This document shows, piece by piece, positions 18,063 through 23,495 of a stretch of 40,997 nt of DNA. Numbering within the stretch: the first letter of the stretch is position 1; every line of letters begins with the position of its first letter. Location of the stretch: the NCBI GenBank assembly GCA_902826515.1, contig CADEFD010000036.1, positions 1 through 40,997 of the forward strand, in the 5' to 3' direction. The notes below the pieces were generated by a model that was given only the letters and a program-made list of their open reading frames with translations, was not told the DNA's origin and made no database searches. The position numbers and the translations under genes are program-made. The DNA comes from an uncultured Acidobacteriota bacterium (GTDB lineage: Bacteria; Acidobacteriota; Vicinamibacteria; Vicinamibacterales; UBA2999).

Positions 18063-19565
18063 CTAGCCGGCCCTCGCGTGACGGCGCGCCAGGGCGGCGC
18101 GCGACACGTCGGCGTCGTCGAAAGCCAGCACGCGGTCGCCGATGTGCTGCGTCTTCTCGTGGCCCTTGCCGGCGATGAGCACGACGTCGCCGGGCTGCGC
18201 CATCGACACGGCCTTCTCGATGGCGGCGGCCCGATCGACGATGGCGGTGACGTCGGGCGCGCGGTCCGACGCGGCCTCACCGGCGGGAATGCCGCGGCGG
18301 ATCTCGTCGATGATGGCGAGCGGATCCTCGCTGCGCGGGTTGTCGGAGGTGATGACGACGACGTCGCTCAACCGCGCCGCGACCATGCCCATGAGCGGAC
18401 GTTTGGTGCGGTCGCGGTCGCCGCCGCAGCCGAAGAGCGTGATGACGCGGCCCGCGGTCAGGGGGCGCGCGGTTTCGATGAGGTTGCGGAGCGCGTCGTC
18501 GGTGTGCGCGTAGTCGACGACCACGGTCACGCCGTCGGCGGGGCTCGAGACCACCTCGAAGCGTCCGGGCACGCCGGTCTGGCTGGCCAGCCCCGCGGCG
18601 ATGGCCTCGCGCGGAATGCCGAGCGCGCTCGCGGTCGCCACCGCCGCGAGCAGGTTGTAGACATTCGGCCGGCCCACGAGCGACGAACGGATGTCGACCG
18701 GACCCGCGGGTGTCGTCGCCGTGAAGCGCACGCCGGCGAGATCCATCACGAGACCTTCGGGGCGCACATCGGCCGGCTTCTGGATCCCGTAGGTCAGCGG
18801 ACGGGCGCAGGTGGCGACGAGCGACGCGGCCCGCGGATCGTCGGCGTTGATGATGCCTGGGGCGTCGGGCCCGAGCATCTCGAAGAGCCGGCGTTTGGCC
18901 GCGAAGTACGACTCCATGTCGGCGTGGAAGTCGAGGTGATCGCGGGTCAGGTTGGTGAAGGCCCCGGCGGCGAAGCGCACGCCGTCCACGCGACGCAGCG
19001 CCAGCGCGTGTGACGACACCTCCATGACGCAGGAGCGATTGCCGGCATCGATCATCTGCCGCAGCAGCGCCTGCACGTCGGAGGCTTCCGGCGTGGTGCG
19101 CGCCGCAGCGCGCGCCTCCTGGCCGATCTTGTAGTGCACGGTGCCCATGACGCCGGCCGACTGTCCGGCCGCATCGAGCACCGCGGCGAGCAGATACGTC
19201 GTGGTGGTCTTGCCGTTCGTGCCGGTCACGCCGATGACCGGGATCTCGCGGCTCGGGTGCCCGTGCACCTCGGCGCCGATGAGCGCCAGCGCCAGCCGCC
19301 CATCGCGCACCACCACCCACGCGACGTCGAGGCCCTCCGGCCGGGGCGACTCGCTGACGACCAGGGCGGCGCCGCGCCGCAGCGCTTCGGGCACGAAGTC
19401 GAGCCCGTCGGCCTTGAGTCCCTTGAGGGCCACGAAGACTGCGCCGTCCGTCACGCGCCGCGAGTCGTAGGCCACGCCGGTGAGGGCGGGCGTACGAGCG
19501 CTCGCGGCCGCCGTCGTCGACACGACGAGGTCACCGAGCGCGGCGATGACGGCGGGCAACGTCAC
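18063..19565 (-). CDS. murE: UDP-MurNAc-L-Ala-D-Glu--2,6-diaminopimelate ligase MurE
   Basis: Cytosolic ligase adding the third stem-peptide residue. Length is 500 aa. P-loop GTNGKTTTT begins at 115, with MEVSSHALAL, TNLTRDHLDFH and NADDP. The specificity motif DNPR lies at 408-411 (SDNPRSEDP), which in characterised enzymes marks use of meso-diaminopimelate rather than lysine. This predicts mDAP-type peptidoglycan. GKGHE near the C-terminus is also family-typical. The GTG start at 19565 overlaps the ftsI stop (GTGA). Confidence 0.97.
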   Translation of the reverse strand: MTLPAVIAALGDLVVSTTAAASARTPALTGVAYDSRRVTDGAVFVALKGLKADGLDFVPEALRRGAALVVSESPRPEGLDVAWVVVRDGRLALALIGAEVHGHPSREIPVIGVTGTNGKTTTTYLLAAVLDAAGQSAGVMGTVHYKIGQEARAAARTTPEASDVQALLRQMIDAGNRSCVMEVSSHALALRRVDGVRFAAGAFTNLTRDHLDFHADMESYFAAKRRLFEMLGPDAPGIINADDPRAASLVATCARPLTYGIQKPADVRPEGLVMDLAGVRFTATTPAGPVDIRSSLVGRPNVYNLLAAVATASALGIPREAIAAGLASQTGVPGRFEVVSSPADGVTVVVDYAHTDDALRNLIETARPLTAGRVITLFGCGGDRDRTKRPLMGMVAARLSDVVVITSDNPRSEDPLAIIDEIRRGIPAGEAASDRAPDVTAIVDRAAAIEKAVSMAQPGDVVLIAGKGHEKTQHIGDRVLAFDDADVSRAALARRHARAG

Positions 19566-21568
19566 CGCTCGCCTCCGGCCATGGCGCGGGCGGCGCGCCC
19601 AGAGGCGCGGTCGAGCATGATCGTCGACGAACCACCGACGGCGACGCTTTCGCCCGCTTCGGGGTACTGCGCGACGACGACCCCGCTGCCCTGCATCTTG
19701 AGCGACACGCCGAGGCGCGCCATGCGGCGCAGCGCCTCGCGGGCGCTGAGGCCGACGAGGTCGGGCATCGCGCGACCGCCGGCATCATCCACGGTCACGA
19801 CCACCGGCTCACCCGCCGGCGGCACGACCGCCTGCGCCTTGCGGTCCACGAGCACCGGCGGCGCCGGGAACACCGTGGGCGGGACGCCGACGTGACGCAG
19901 TGACGCATCGGCGATCTTCTGGAAGATCGGACCGGCCACCGAGCCGCCGTAGTAGAAGCCGTTGCGGGGCGTGTCCACCACGACGACGATGGCGAAACGC
20001 GGCGAGCGCGACGGCACGAAGCCGGTGAACGAGACGTTGTAGTCGGTGTGCGAGTAGGCGCCGGCGACGAGCTTCTGCGCGGTGCCCGTCTTGCCGGCCA
20101 CGGTGTAGCCCTCGACGCTGGCCTGCGTGCCCGTGCCGCGCACGATGACGTCTTCCATGATCGTGGTGAGCTCGGCGGCCGTGCGCGGGCTGATGACGCG
20201 CCGCACCTCGACCACCTCGGTCGGCGTGCGCACGCCGTCGCGCACCACCGCCCGCACGATGCGCGGCTTGAGCAGGCGACCGCCGTTGGCCACGGCCGAG
20301 GTTGCCGTCACCATCTGCAGCGGGGTCACGCCCACCTGGTAGCCCATCGACACCGACGCCAGCGCGCTGTCGTCGAGGCGGGACGGATTCCAGACGATGC
20401 CGGGGCTCTCGCCGGGGAAGTCGCTCGACACGGCGCGGCCGAAACCGAAGGCGCTCACGTAGGCGCCGAGGCGCTCGGGGCCGAGCTTCCAGCCCACCTT
20501 GATCGCGCCGACGTTGCTCGATTTCACGAGCGCGTCGGCGAAGCTCAGCGTGCCGTAGTTGTGCGTGTCATCGATGCGGCGGTACTTGATCTTGATGTAG
20601 CCAGGCGCGGTATCGACCATATCCGCCGGGTGGATGACACCTTCCTCGAGCGCTGCCGACGCCGTGACGATCTTGAAGGTGCTGCCGGGCTCGTAGAGGT
20701 CCTGCACGGCGCGGTTCCGCCGCTGCTCGGGGGTGGCGTCGCGGAACGTGTTCGGGTTGTACGTCGGGTAGCTGGCCATGGCGAGGATCTCGCCGGTGGC
20801 CGGATCCATCACGACCGCCGTGCCGGTGGCGGCACGATGCGCCTTGACGCCGGCCTCGAGTTCGCGCTCGACGATGTGCTGCAGGTATTCGTCGATCGTC
20901 AGTTCGAGGTTGGCGCCGCTCGTCGGCAGCCGCTCGATGCGGCTGAAGGCGCGGCGGCGGGCATCGGTCTGCACGAGCACCGTGCCGGGCGTGCCGAGAA
21001 TCGACTTGTTGTAGGCAGCCTCGAGGCCGCCGAGGCCGACATTGTCGGTGCCGACGTAGCCGAGCACCTGGCTGGCCAGTTCCTTGTTCGGGTAGAAGCG
21101 GCGGCTTTCCTTCATGAAGCCGACGCCCTCGAGGTCGAGCGCCTTCACGCGTTCGTAGGCCGCCTGCGACACGAACCGCTGCACGTAGGTGAACTGCGCC
21201 TTGCGGCCGAGCTTTTCCTGGAGCTCCGCGCGGTCGGCCGCCGTGCAGTCGTCGAGGGCGGCGCAGAGGTCGCGCGCCGCCTGCTTCGCGTCGGCGATTT
21301 CCGACGGCACCGCGTAGATGGTGTCGACGTCCACGCTGTAGGCCAGCACGCGGTTGTTGCGGTCGCGGATCTCGCCGCGCTTGGCCGGCGCGTGAATGGT
21401 GCGCTTCTGCTGCCCGTCGGCGCGGGCCATGAGGTCGGCGTGGCGGGCCACCTGCAGGTACAGGAGTCGGCTCTCGATGCCGGCCGTCCACAACGCCAGC
21501 AGCCCCCCCGCGATGAGGACGCGCTGCCGGACGGTGCGGCGCCAGGCGTTGGGACGTTCGTCAGTCAT
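19562..21568 (-). CDS. ftsI: Division transpeptidase FtsI (class B PBP) with a PASTA domain
   Basis: Septal DD-transpeptidase (PBP3 type), partner of FtsW. Length is 668 aa. Cytoplasmic N-terminus and one TM segment (about 17-37), dimerisation/pedestal domain with AKRGEIRDRNNRVLA, then the transpeptidase with Ser296 in STFK, SSN at 350-352 and KTGT at 493-496. Residues about 598-654 (MPDLVGLSAREALRRM through PEAGESVAVG) form one PASTA domain, a module that in Firmicutes and Actinobacteria contacts muropeptides or beta-lactams. A PASTA is usual in SpoVD/PBP2x-like proteins and absent in E. coli FtsI. The ATG at 21568 is 20 bp after ftsL. Confidence 0.95.
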   Translation of the reverse strand: MTDERPNAWRRTVRQRVLIAGGLLALWTAGIESRLLYLQVARHADLMARADGQQKRTIHAPAKRGEIRDRNNRVLAYSVDVDTIYAVPSEIADAKQAARDLCAALDDCTAADRAELQEKLGRKAQFTYVQRFVSQAAYERVKALDLEGVGFMKESRRFYPNKELASQVLGYVGTDNVGLGGLEAAYNKSILGTPGTVLVQTDARRRAFSRIERLPTSGANLELTIDEYLQHIVERELEAGVKAHRAATGTAVVMDPATGEILAMASYPTYNPNTFRDATPEQRRNRAVQDLYEPGSTFKIVTASAALEEGVIHPADMVDTAPGYIKIKYRRIDDTHNYGTLSFADALVKSSNVGAIKVGWKLGPERLGAYVSAFGFGRAVSSDFPGESPGIVWNPSRLDDSALASVSMGYQVGVTPLQMVTATSAVANGGRLLKPRIVRAVVRDGVRTPTEVVEVRRVISPRTAAELTTIMEDVIVRGTGTQASVEGYTVAGKTGTAQKLVAGAYSHTDYNVSFTGFVPSRSPRFAIVVVVDTPRNGFYYGGSVAGPIFQKIADASLRHVGVPPTVFPAPPVLVDRKAQAVVPPAGEPVVVTVDDAGGRAMPDLVGLSAREALRRMARLGVSLKMQGSGVVVAQYPEAGESVAVGGSSTIMLDRASGRAARAMAGGER

Positions 21569-21588: not shown

Positions 21589-21984
21589 TCAGCGGGAGAC
21601 GACGACCGAGCGCGCGGGCGGCTCGGCGGGAAGCACACGTTCGAGCACGATCGCGTCACCGGACTTCGGCGCCACCATGCCGAGGCGGGTCAGGGCGATG
21701 CGTTCGATGCGCTGCGGGGCGCGCAGCGTCTCGATCTCGAGCTTGAGGTGGCGGCGCACGTCGTCCTCGGCGGCCAGCGCCTTCTGCAGCGCGTCGATCT
21801 CGTAGCCGTGCCGGATGTGCTCGAAGTGCTGCCAGGCGTCGAACATCACGACCAGCACGAGCACGGCGCCGATGCCGAACATGCTCAGCAGCTCGCGCTG
21901 CTTGCGCTCGTCGACCTCGCGCACGATCGGGTTGTTCCTGACATCCTTGCGGATTGCGTATTCGAAGGTTTCCGCGTGTTCCAC
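21589..21984 (-). CDS. ftsL: Cell division protein FtsL (probable)
   Basis: A 131-residue bitopic protein: cytoplasmic N-terminus with many charged residues (1-33), one hydrophobic segment (about 34-49), then a periplasmic helix with heptad character (EIDALQKALAAEDDVRRHLKLEIETL). It ends with PQRIERIALTRLGMVAPKSGD, which resembles the short conserved FtsL tail. FtsL forms a coiled coil with FtsB and connects FtsQ to FtsW/FtsI. Sequence conservation in this family is low, so position between rsmH and ftsI is a main argument. The GTG start at 21984 follows a strong GGGAGGA site by about 5 nt. Confidence 0.8.
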   Translation of the reverse strand: MEHAETFEYAIRKDVRNNPIVREVDERKQRELLSMFGIGAVLVLVVMFDAWQHFEHIRHGYEIDALQKALAAEDDVRRHLKLEIETLRAPQRIERIALTRLGMVAPKSGDAIVLERVLPAEPPARSVVVSR

Positions 21985-22002: not shown

Positions 22003-22902
22003 TCACGCCAGACGTTCCGCGACGCGCAGCTTGGCGCTGCGGGCGCGGGGATTCAGTGCGATTTCCTGCTCCGACGCCACGAGCGGCCGGCCGGTGAGGA
22101 CCCGGACGACGCCCGCTTCCCGATCGAGGCCGCGCAGCGTGTGCTTCACGACGCGGTCTTCCAGCGAGTGGAAGCTGATGACCGCCATCCGCCCGCCGGC
22201 GGCGAGCCGGACGGCGACGTGGCGGATGAACTCGTCGAGCCGATCGAGTTCGCCGTTGACCCAGATCCGCAGCGCCTGGAAGGTCCGCGTCGCCGGATCG
22301 ATCCGCTGCCAGCCCGGGGCCGCGACCGCCCGGCGCACGATGGCCGCCAGCTGCCCGGTGGTCGTGATGGCTTCGCGTTCGCGCGCCATGACGACGGCCC
22401 GCGCCACGCGGCGCGACTTGCGCTCCTCGCCGAAGCGGTAAATCACGTCGGCGAGGTCGGTTTCGCTCACGGAGGCCAGCCGCTCGGCGGCCGTCTCTCC
22501 CTGCGACTGATCCATCCGCATGTCGAGCGGTTCGTCACGGCGGAAGGAGAAGCCGCGGCCGGGCGCATCGAACTGCATCGACGAGACCCCGAGGTCGGCC
22601 AGCGTGCCCTGCACCCGGTCGAATCCCTGACGGTCGAGCACCGCGTCGTAGTCGCGGTAGTCGGCGTGCACGAGACGCACGCGCGAGCCGAAGGGCTCGA
22701 GGGTGCGGGCGGCGGCTTCGAGCGCCGTCGGATCGCGGTCGATGCCGATGACGAGGTCGGCGCCGAGGTCGAGCAGGGCGCGGGTATGCCCGCCAAGCCC
22801 GAGCGTGCAGTCCACGAACGTGCCTCCGCGTTCCGGCTGCAGGAGCCGCGTGACTTCGTCCACCATGACCGGCAGGTGCTGGGGCTGGGTCACATCCGAC
22901 AC
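22003..22902 (-). CDS. rsmH: 16S rRNA (cytosine(1402)-N(4))-methyltransferase RsmH
   Basis: SAM-dependent methyltransferase making N4-methyl-C1402 in the 30S decoding centre; formerly MraW. Length is 299 aa. HLPVMVDEV at the N-terminus, the SAM-binding VDCTLGLGGHTRALL, the acidic IGIDRDPTAL, DLGVSSMQFD with GFSFRRDEPLDMRMD, and VISFHSLEDRVVKH are diagnostic. The most upstream GTG (22902) gives a family-like N-terminus but has no good SD; a second in-frame GTG at 22893 is an alternative. It lies 21 bp after mraZ. Confidence 0.96.
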   Translation of the reverse strand: MSDVTQPQHLPVMVDEVTRLLQPERGGTFVDCTLGLGGHTRALLDLGADLVIGIDRDPTALEAAARTLEPFGSRVRLVHADYRDYDAVLDRQGFDRVQGTLADLGVSSMQFDAPGRGFSFRRDEPLDMRMDQSQGETAAERLASVSETDLADVIYRFGEERKSRRVARAVVMAREREAITTTGQLAAIVRRAVAAPGWQRIDPATRTFQALRIWVNGELDRLDEFIRHVAVRLAAGGRMAVISFHSLEDRVVKHTLRGLDREAGVVRVLTGRPLVASEQEIALNPRARSAKLRVAERLA

Positions 22903-22923: not shown

Positions 22924-23376
22924 CTAGAGCTCGAAGCCGGACAGGGCGACTTCGTCTTCCGTCGTCAGCGGGGACTTGACCCTCGCGCCGATGTTCTCGT
23001 CGTTCCACAGGACGAGATGGTCGAGGTTGCCGAGCACGGCCACCGGACCGTTGATTCGCGCCGACTCACGCAGGCGGGGCTGGATGAGGAGCCGCCCCTG
23101 AGAGTCGATTTCGGCGACCTGGCCGAAATAGCTGACGCGCTCGATGAACTTGCGCACGGCCGGGTGCGAGGGGGGGGCCTTGCGCAGTTTGGCTTCCTTT
23201 TCGAGCCAGACCGGCATCGGATACACAAGTACCGATTCGCCAGTCAGACTGGTGACGTAGACCTCGCTGCCGTATTCGCAGTTCTGGAACACGGCGCGAT
23301 GGGCGTTCGGGATCTTGAGCCGGCCTTTGTCGTCGATCTTGGCCGGCTCGTTCCCTCGGAAGGATTTTTGCTCCAC
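22924..23376 (-). CDS. mraZ: Transcriptional regulator MraZ
   Basis: A 150-residue protein with two AbrB-like swapped-hairpin repeats, each with the family D-x-K/Q-G-R signature: KIDDKGRLKIP (residues about 13-23) and EIDSQGRLLIQPRLR (about 89-103). In E. coli, MraZ forms a ring-like oligomer, binds repeats in front of its own gene and represses the dcw operon. It is first in the cluster. The start is GTG at 23376. Three TGGAN boxes lie between the -10 box and this codon, the last one overlapping the start, so autoregulation is likely. Confidence 0.95.
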   Translation of the reverse strand: MEQKSFRGNEPAKIDDKGRLKIPNAHRAVFQNCEYGSEVYVTSLTGESVLVYPMPVWLEKEAKLRKAPPSHPAVRKFIERVSYFGQVAEIDSQGRLLIQPRLRESARINGPVAVLGNLDHLVLWNDENIGARVKSPLTTEDEVALSGFEL

Positions 23377-23395
23377 TCTGGTCCAGAAATTTCCA
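23371..23395 (-). promoter_or_regulatory. MraZ operator: three TGGAN boxes with 5-nt spacers
   Basis: Read on the minus strand: TGGAA (23395-23391), ATTTC, TGGAC (23385-23381), CAGAG, TGGAG (23375-23371). The period is exactly 10 bp, one helical turn, as in the TGGGN-N5 repeats bound by E. coli MraZ. The boxes sit downstream of the -10 element and overlap the start codon. Repeats and spacing are seen; binding by this MraZ is inferred. Confidence 0.7.
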
Positions 23396-23400
23396 CCGGA

Positions 23401-23429
23401 ATGGTATGAAACCGAGGGGGCGGTGTCAA
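23401..23429 (-). promoter_or_regulatory. Main promoter of the dcw cluster
   Basis: A perfect -35 TTGACA (23429-23424), a 17-bp spacer and -10 TACCAT (23406-23401) on the minus strand. The expected start of transcription is near 23394, giving a leader of about 18 nt before the mraZ GTG. This is the best sigma-70-type promoter in the window. Confidence 0.75.
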
Positions 23430-23466
23430 CGGTAAGTTGTCGTGATTATTGGGCTTACGTATTTCG

Positions 23467-23495
23467 TTCGCCCCACTTTTTGTGGGTGGGGCGAA
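23467..23495. promoter_or_regulatory. 10-bp perfect inverted repeat between mraZ and the glycan operon
   Basis: TTCGCCCCAC (23467-23476) and GTGGGGCGAA (23486-23495) are separated by 9 nt. Centre-to-centre distance is 19 bp, near two helical turns, so it could bind a dimeric regulator. It lies upstream of both divergent promoters, 38 bp beyond the mraZ -35 box and about 50 bp before the other -10 box. The binding factor is unknown. Confidence 0.4.

Follow-up and report, generated by a model that had tools for sequence, protein, structure and literature searches.

The 40,997-nucleotide stretch of DNA analysed here (the window; contig CADEFD010000036.1 of an uncultured Acidobacteriota bacterium) carries three TGGAN boxes between the promoter of its dcw gene cluster and the start of mraZ. 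This raises the question of whether the boxes form the operator of the MraZ repressor and how MraZ would recognise boxes in which the fourth base is A. MraZ boxes at the E. coli promoter Pmra were reportedly described by Eraso and colleagues in 2014, a study that PMC8475190 also cites.

According to PMC8475190, MraZ represses the operon in both E. coli and M. genitalium; citing Fisunov et al. 2016, the same source gives the Mollicute MraZ site as repeats of AAAGTG[T/G]. In Burkholderia cenocepacia, the operator at PmraBc consists of four 7-nt repeats with a 3-nt spacer, located 3' of the -10 hexamer and over the transcription start (PMC7761207).

Promoter, boxes and MraZ of the window

Read directly on the minus strand (23429-23371), the region has the sequence TTGACA-N17-TACCAT-TCCGG-TGGAA-ATTTC-TGGAC-CAGAG-TGGAG (Table 1). 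This confirms the layout given in the original prediction, in which three TGGAN boxes with a 10-bp period (23395-23371) follow the TTGACA-17-TACCAT promoter, the first of them 5 nt past the -10 hexamer. The promoter is the sole consensus match within 1.5 kb. The pattern TGGA-N6-TGGA-N6-TGGA has one copy in the window and none in 100 shuffles, and the relaxed pattern TGGW-N6-TGGW-N6-TGGW has two copies across the 5.85-Mb assembly, one being the mraZ operator; the other sits within an apparent coding sequence and was rejected as a second operator. Boxes 1 and 3 have G immediately ahead of TGG, and box 2 has C (CTGG). Judging from the position of the -10 hexamer, transcription is predicted to start within box 1, about 7 nt downstream of that hexamer.

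The protein matches PF02381 above the cut-off in two stretches and has two DxxGR halves, as in the MraZ family. It misses the TIGR00242 equivalog cut-off (64.5 vs 98.35 bits), although every NCBIfam match is still MraZ, and is best described as a divergent member of the family. An AlphaFold model (pLDDT 81) has two halves with matching strand-loop-strand units near residues 13-18 and 90-94. Its best PDB matches are MraZ throughout, including the M. genitalium MraZ-promoter complexes 9r4j and 9sz7, cryo-EM entries released in February 2026, from which part of the residue-base contact picture may already be known. One relative (L120; G142, contig C90) encodes a second, divergent MraZ with loops DTQNR and EVQGR beside a normal MraZ, and CAGGAC/ATAGGAC repeats with a 10-bp period lie upstream of the divergent gene.

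Table 1. Features of the mraZ region, in coordinates of the window
Feature	Position	Strand	Basis
-35 hexamer TTGACA, dcw/mraZ promoter	23424..23429	-	10/12 consensus match, 17-bp spacer
-10 hexamer TACCAT	23401..23406	-	order consensus TACTAT, 5 nt ahead of box 1
Putative MraZ box 1, G-TGGAA	23391..23396	-	sequence and order profile
Putative MraZ box 2, C-TGGAC	23381..23386	-	sequence and order profile
Putative MraZ box 3, G-TGGAG; holds mraZ start GTG	23371..23376	-	sequence, ORF
mraZ, 150 aa, two-half MraZ repressor	22924..23376	-	Pfam PF02381 1.2e-12
K17 codon, N-half loop DDKGR	23326..23328	-	covariation with base before TGG
Q93 codon, C-half loop DSQGR	23098..23100	-	covariation with base after TGG
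Conserved element CGAACGAAATACGTAAG, upstream of promoter	23454..23470	-	motif count in order
rsmH (mraW), dcw cluster gene 2	22003..22902	-	PF01795 1e-98; TIGR00006 7.6e-92
ftsL/divIC-like gene	21589..21984	-	PF04977 6.4e-6, under curated cut-off
ftsI-like penicillin-binding protein with PASTA domain	19562..21568	-	domain search

Conservation of the box array

The comparison covered 318 relatives, the order set comprising the 140 genomes with enough sequence upstream of mraZ. The closest relatives that carry a name are Acidobacteria MAGs. The boxes proposed in the original prediction are conserved in these relatives: at least three TGG boxes at an exact 10-bp period were found in 130 of the 140 order genomes, compared with 0.3% of Markov shuffles. 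Distances between TGGs are concentrated at 10 (282 pairs) and 20 (155 pairs), with only 6 pairs at 9 and 2 at 11. The order profile, built from 119 triples, reads TTGACA, 17 bp, TACTAT, 5 bp, GTGGA-TTTTT-GTGGA-NNAAA-GTGGAG, and the register of promoter and boxes is constant through the order, the -35 hexamer lying at -34 to -29 relative to the first TGG. Order-wide, G precedes TGG in 327 of 401 boxes. The TGGAN definition of the box omitted this preceding base, although the unit that is conserved is GTGGA, with GTGG as a firmer core than the fourth base. Operators of four or five boxes occur in families f36, f26, f37 and f60 (e.g. L057, L071, L078, L039, L096 and L061), and box number looks family-typical, f36 having five.

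In common with known MraZ operators, the window boxes are 10-bp direct repeats that lie just 3' of the -10 hexamer, ahead of mraZ-rsmH-ftsL and over the inferred transcription start, and they share the GTG(G) core common to distant bacteria (GTGG in boxes 1 and 3, CTGG in box 2). The E. coli locus (L125) likewise has 10-bp direct repeats just past the -10 hexamer and before mraZ, in the same gene order. G precedes every TGG in E. coli (GTGGG boxes), as it does in boxes 1 and 3 of the window. The fourth base is G in all three E. coli boxes, with Ala in the C-half loop, whereas the window has Gln in this loop and A in 3/3 boxes, which thus depart from the E. coli form TGGGN. The start codon lies well downstream of box 3 in E. 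coli but inside it in the window. The Mollicute system, including that of M. genitalium (9r4j, 9sz7), shares the GTG core, the repeats and the MraZ fold, although Mollicute boxes tolerate GTGT, whereas the Acidobacteriota boxes examined are GTGG or variants of it. The repeats of PmraBc are also placed past the -10 hexamer and on the transcription start (predicted in the window), but number four instead of three; in a B. stagnalis relative, the boxes read GTGG/GTGT.

Box 3 and the start of translation

No start codon precedes the GTG in AGAGTGGAG (23376-23374) in the mraZ frame, and no other GTG is a plausible start; the position of this GTG within box 3 agrees with the overlap originally described. 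Judging from the order genomes, however, this overlap is a local state of some families. In 95 of these genomes, the start codon stands directly before a conserved [FL]RG, typically 10-14 nt past the TGG of box 3, and the GGAG of this box is therefore placed like a Shine-Dalgarno sequence. Another 28 genomes (22 from the family of the window, five from f4 and one from f9) no longer have the start adjacent to [FL]RG, which leaves the [AG]TG of box 3 as the sole in-frame start, ATG in two of them. The GGA of box 2 stands 5 nt upstream of the GTG start and could act as a weak Shine-Dalgarno sequence where box 3 holds the start. The claim that MraZ would also block translation initiation directly was rejected, because MraZ binds DNA and a DNA box overlapping the start codon leaves the start codon of the mRNA exposed; moreover, the overlap is family-specific and most box 3s of the order are a GGAG upstream of the start.

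Covariation of MraZ loops and box ends

The idea that loop residues and end bases covary was recorded from the first relatives, before more genomes were fetched, and boxes were counted by loop type in arrays with at least three boxes, arrays with fewer than two TGGs being omitted. With K in the N-half loop and Q in the C-half loop, G precedes TGG in 531 of 618 boxes; with A, G, N, Q or T in the N-half loop it does so in 0 of 70, and R is intermediate. G follows TGG in about 5% of boxes where the C-half loop has Q and nearly always where it has K or R. All four loop combinations are found in Acidobacteriota, namely GTGGW (K,Q), HTGGA (non-K,Q; families f12, f28, f60 and f66), GTGGG (K,K/R; three f39 genomes, one of which has GTGGG in all boxes) and HTGGG (non-K,K; Aminicenantia). 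Among the later-fetched genomes, G precedes TGG in 0 of 59 boxes with N-half residues other than K or R and in 94 of 107 with K, and follows it in 105 of 109 boxes with C-half K or R and in 4 of 120 with Q. Taken over the 318 relatives, this suggests that two MraZ residues set the bases framing each repeat.

Where the N-half loop has Q, the core becomes T[A/T]GGW, with A immediately preceding GG in 58% of boxes compared with 4% in K types. In f33, which has this residue, the only TGG box is GTGG, such single-box genomes being outside the counts. MraZ proteins with DxQGR as the first loop and TAGGW/TTGGW boxes, about five in a row, were observed in L055, L061, L069, L236, L237, L244 and their relatives, and families of this type are f23, f33, f60, f65, f66 and f67. 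In Gram-positive MraZ with DxQGR, TGG is followed by A, T, C and G (GGG in Subdoligranulum), and a universal rule from Q to A/T is contradicted by Bacillota and Actinomycetota.

Alternative explanations and the fourth base

Such covariation could have arisen through common descent or from base composition instead of contact, and the genomes with K or R in the C-half loop do come mostly from one large clade. However, a scan of every MraZ column, with families weighted equally, placed K17 at the top for the base before TGG (R2 0.81; linked Q93 0.47; next column 0.22) and Q93 at the top for the base after it (R2 0.91; linked K17 0.52; next column 0.37), both far above all other unlinked columns. 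On a quick tree of two genes only (MraZ without its loops, and RsmH), Pagel-type dependence tests gave LR 49.8 (p 4e-10) for the N-half loop and the preceding base, with about eight trait changes and matching box changes in most, and LR 19.7 (p 6e-4), with few changes, for the C-half loop and the following base. Base composition was ruled out as the explanation since the pattern stands in each G+C bin, and the AT-rich Aminicenantia have G at position 4, yet lack G before TGG. Either of these origins is thus unlikely. Still further from probable is the suggestion that the triple is the site of another regulator or a chance repeat, which we consider highly implausible given that the array is conserved with constant register next to mraZ, that this layout recurs in E. 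coli and in three or more further phyla, and that the boxes covary with MraZ itself.

The fourth base was originally taken as a sign of a shifted recognition base in this lineage. Order-wide, 335 of 401 boxes (84%) have A at this position, 33 have T, 21 have G and 12 have C; 80 of the 119 triples read AAA, and the share of A in the order profile is 85%, 83% and 86% for boxes 1, 2 and 3. Outside the order, Acidobacteriota that share this C-loop type have A in 127 boxes, T in 95, C in 24 and G in 10, and the base is G in Aminicenantia and some neighbours. In other phyla, sampled mostly through database entries that are classed as plasmid or phage but contain an mraZ region of chromosomal type (names as deposited), the fourth bases are G,G,T in Proteus, A,A,T in Aeromonas, A,C,T in Bacillus velezensis, T,G,T in Listeria, G,G,G in Subdoligranulum and G,A,T,A in Nonomuraea. 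The A is thus kept in the lineage as proposed, but it is not a clear shift from a universal G, because TGGG is the form found in E. coli and Aminicenantia-like Acidobacteriota and the base elsewhere is A/T-rich or mixed. On these counts, A at the fourth base is a real lineage preference, yet no replacement of a universally recognised G, and G before TGG is kept more widely than the fourth base. It has also to be considered that MraZ might not read this A, with TGGAG maintained for its role in translation initiation (as start codon or as GGAG Shine-Dalgarno sequence) and no other constraint on position 4, which would agree with the Shine-Dalgarno-like placing of box 3 in the 95 genomes and with the mixed position 4 of other phyla. 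This is doubtful, as boxes 1 and 2 are equally rich in A though not beside the start codon in those genomes, and in other classes the boxes lie mostly 60-200 nt upstream while position 4 is still A/T, with G in the genomes that have K or R in the C-half loop.

Proposed mechanism

From the observed sequence, conservation, position and covariation of the boxes, we infer that the three-box (G)TGGA array is most probably the site at which MraZ binds and represses its own operon, and that the protein would contact the bases framing TGG directly. The 10-bp period places neighbouring boxes on a single face of the helix, where MraZ would occupy them next to one another, and since the predicted transcription start lies in box 1, bound MraZ would cover the initiation site, stop RNA polymerase and so repress the dcw operon. 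The third residue of the N-half DxXGR loop (K17) would most likely specify the base preceding TGG, and its C-half counterpart (Q93) would influence the base that follows, the K and Q loops giving rise to GTGGA boxes in the lineage of the window.

A more general reading, towards which the balance of the evidence tips slightly, is that the two pseudo-symmetric halves of MraZ read the ends of the 5-bp box and that the repressor and all its boxes changed together repeatedly within the phylum. In the N-half, K would go with G, small residues or N with A/T/C, and Q with T, often with a T-to-A change at the next base (TAGGW); in the C-half, Q would go with A/T and K or R with G at the last base. The resulting operators would be GTGGW, HTGGA, GTGGG, HTGGG and TWGGW. 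If this is correct, the residue-base correspondence and its natural swaps would make MraZ sites predictable from protein sequence, would open the specificity of an AbrB-like repressor with two halves to direct testing, and would show the joint change of a repressor and several repeated sites of one operator.

Other elements upstream of the promoter

The motif CGAAANTT(A/T)NGCGTAA[CG] is found upstream of the promoter in 68 of 130 order genomes, compared with about 1% in shuffles, and its commonest position is exactly 75 bp ahead of the first TGG. The element at 23454-23470 is probably the target of a further regulator of the dcw operon. The region that separates mraZ from the divergent gene also contains an inverted repeat (TTCGCCCCAC...GTGGGGCGAA, 23467-23495), which is possibly a terminator or a regulatory hairpin.
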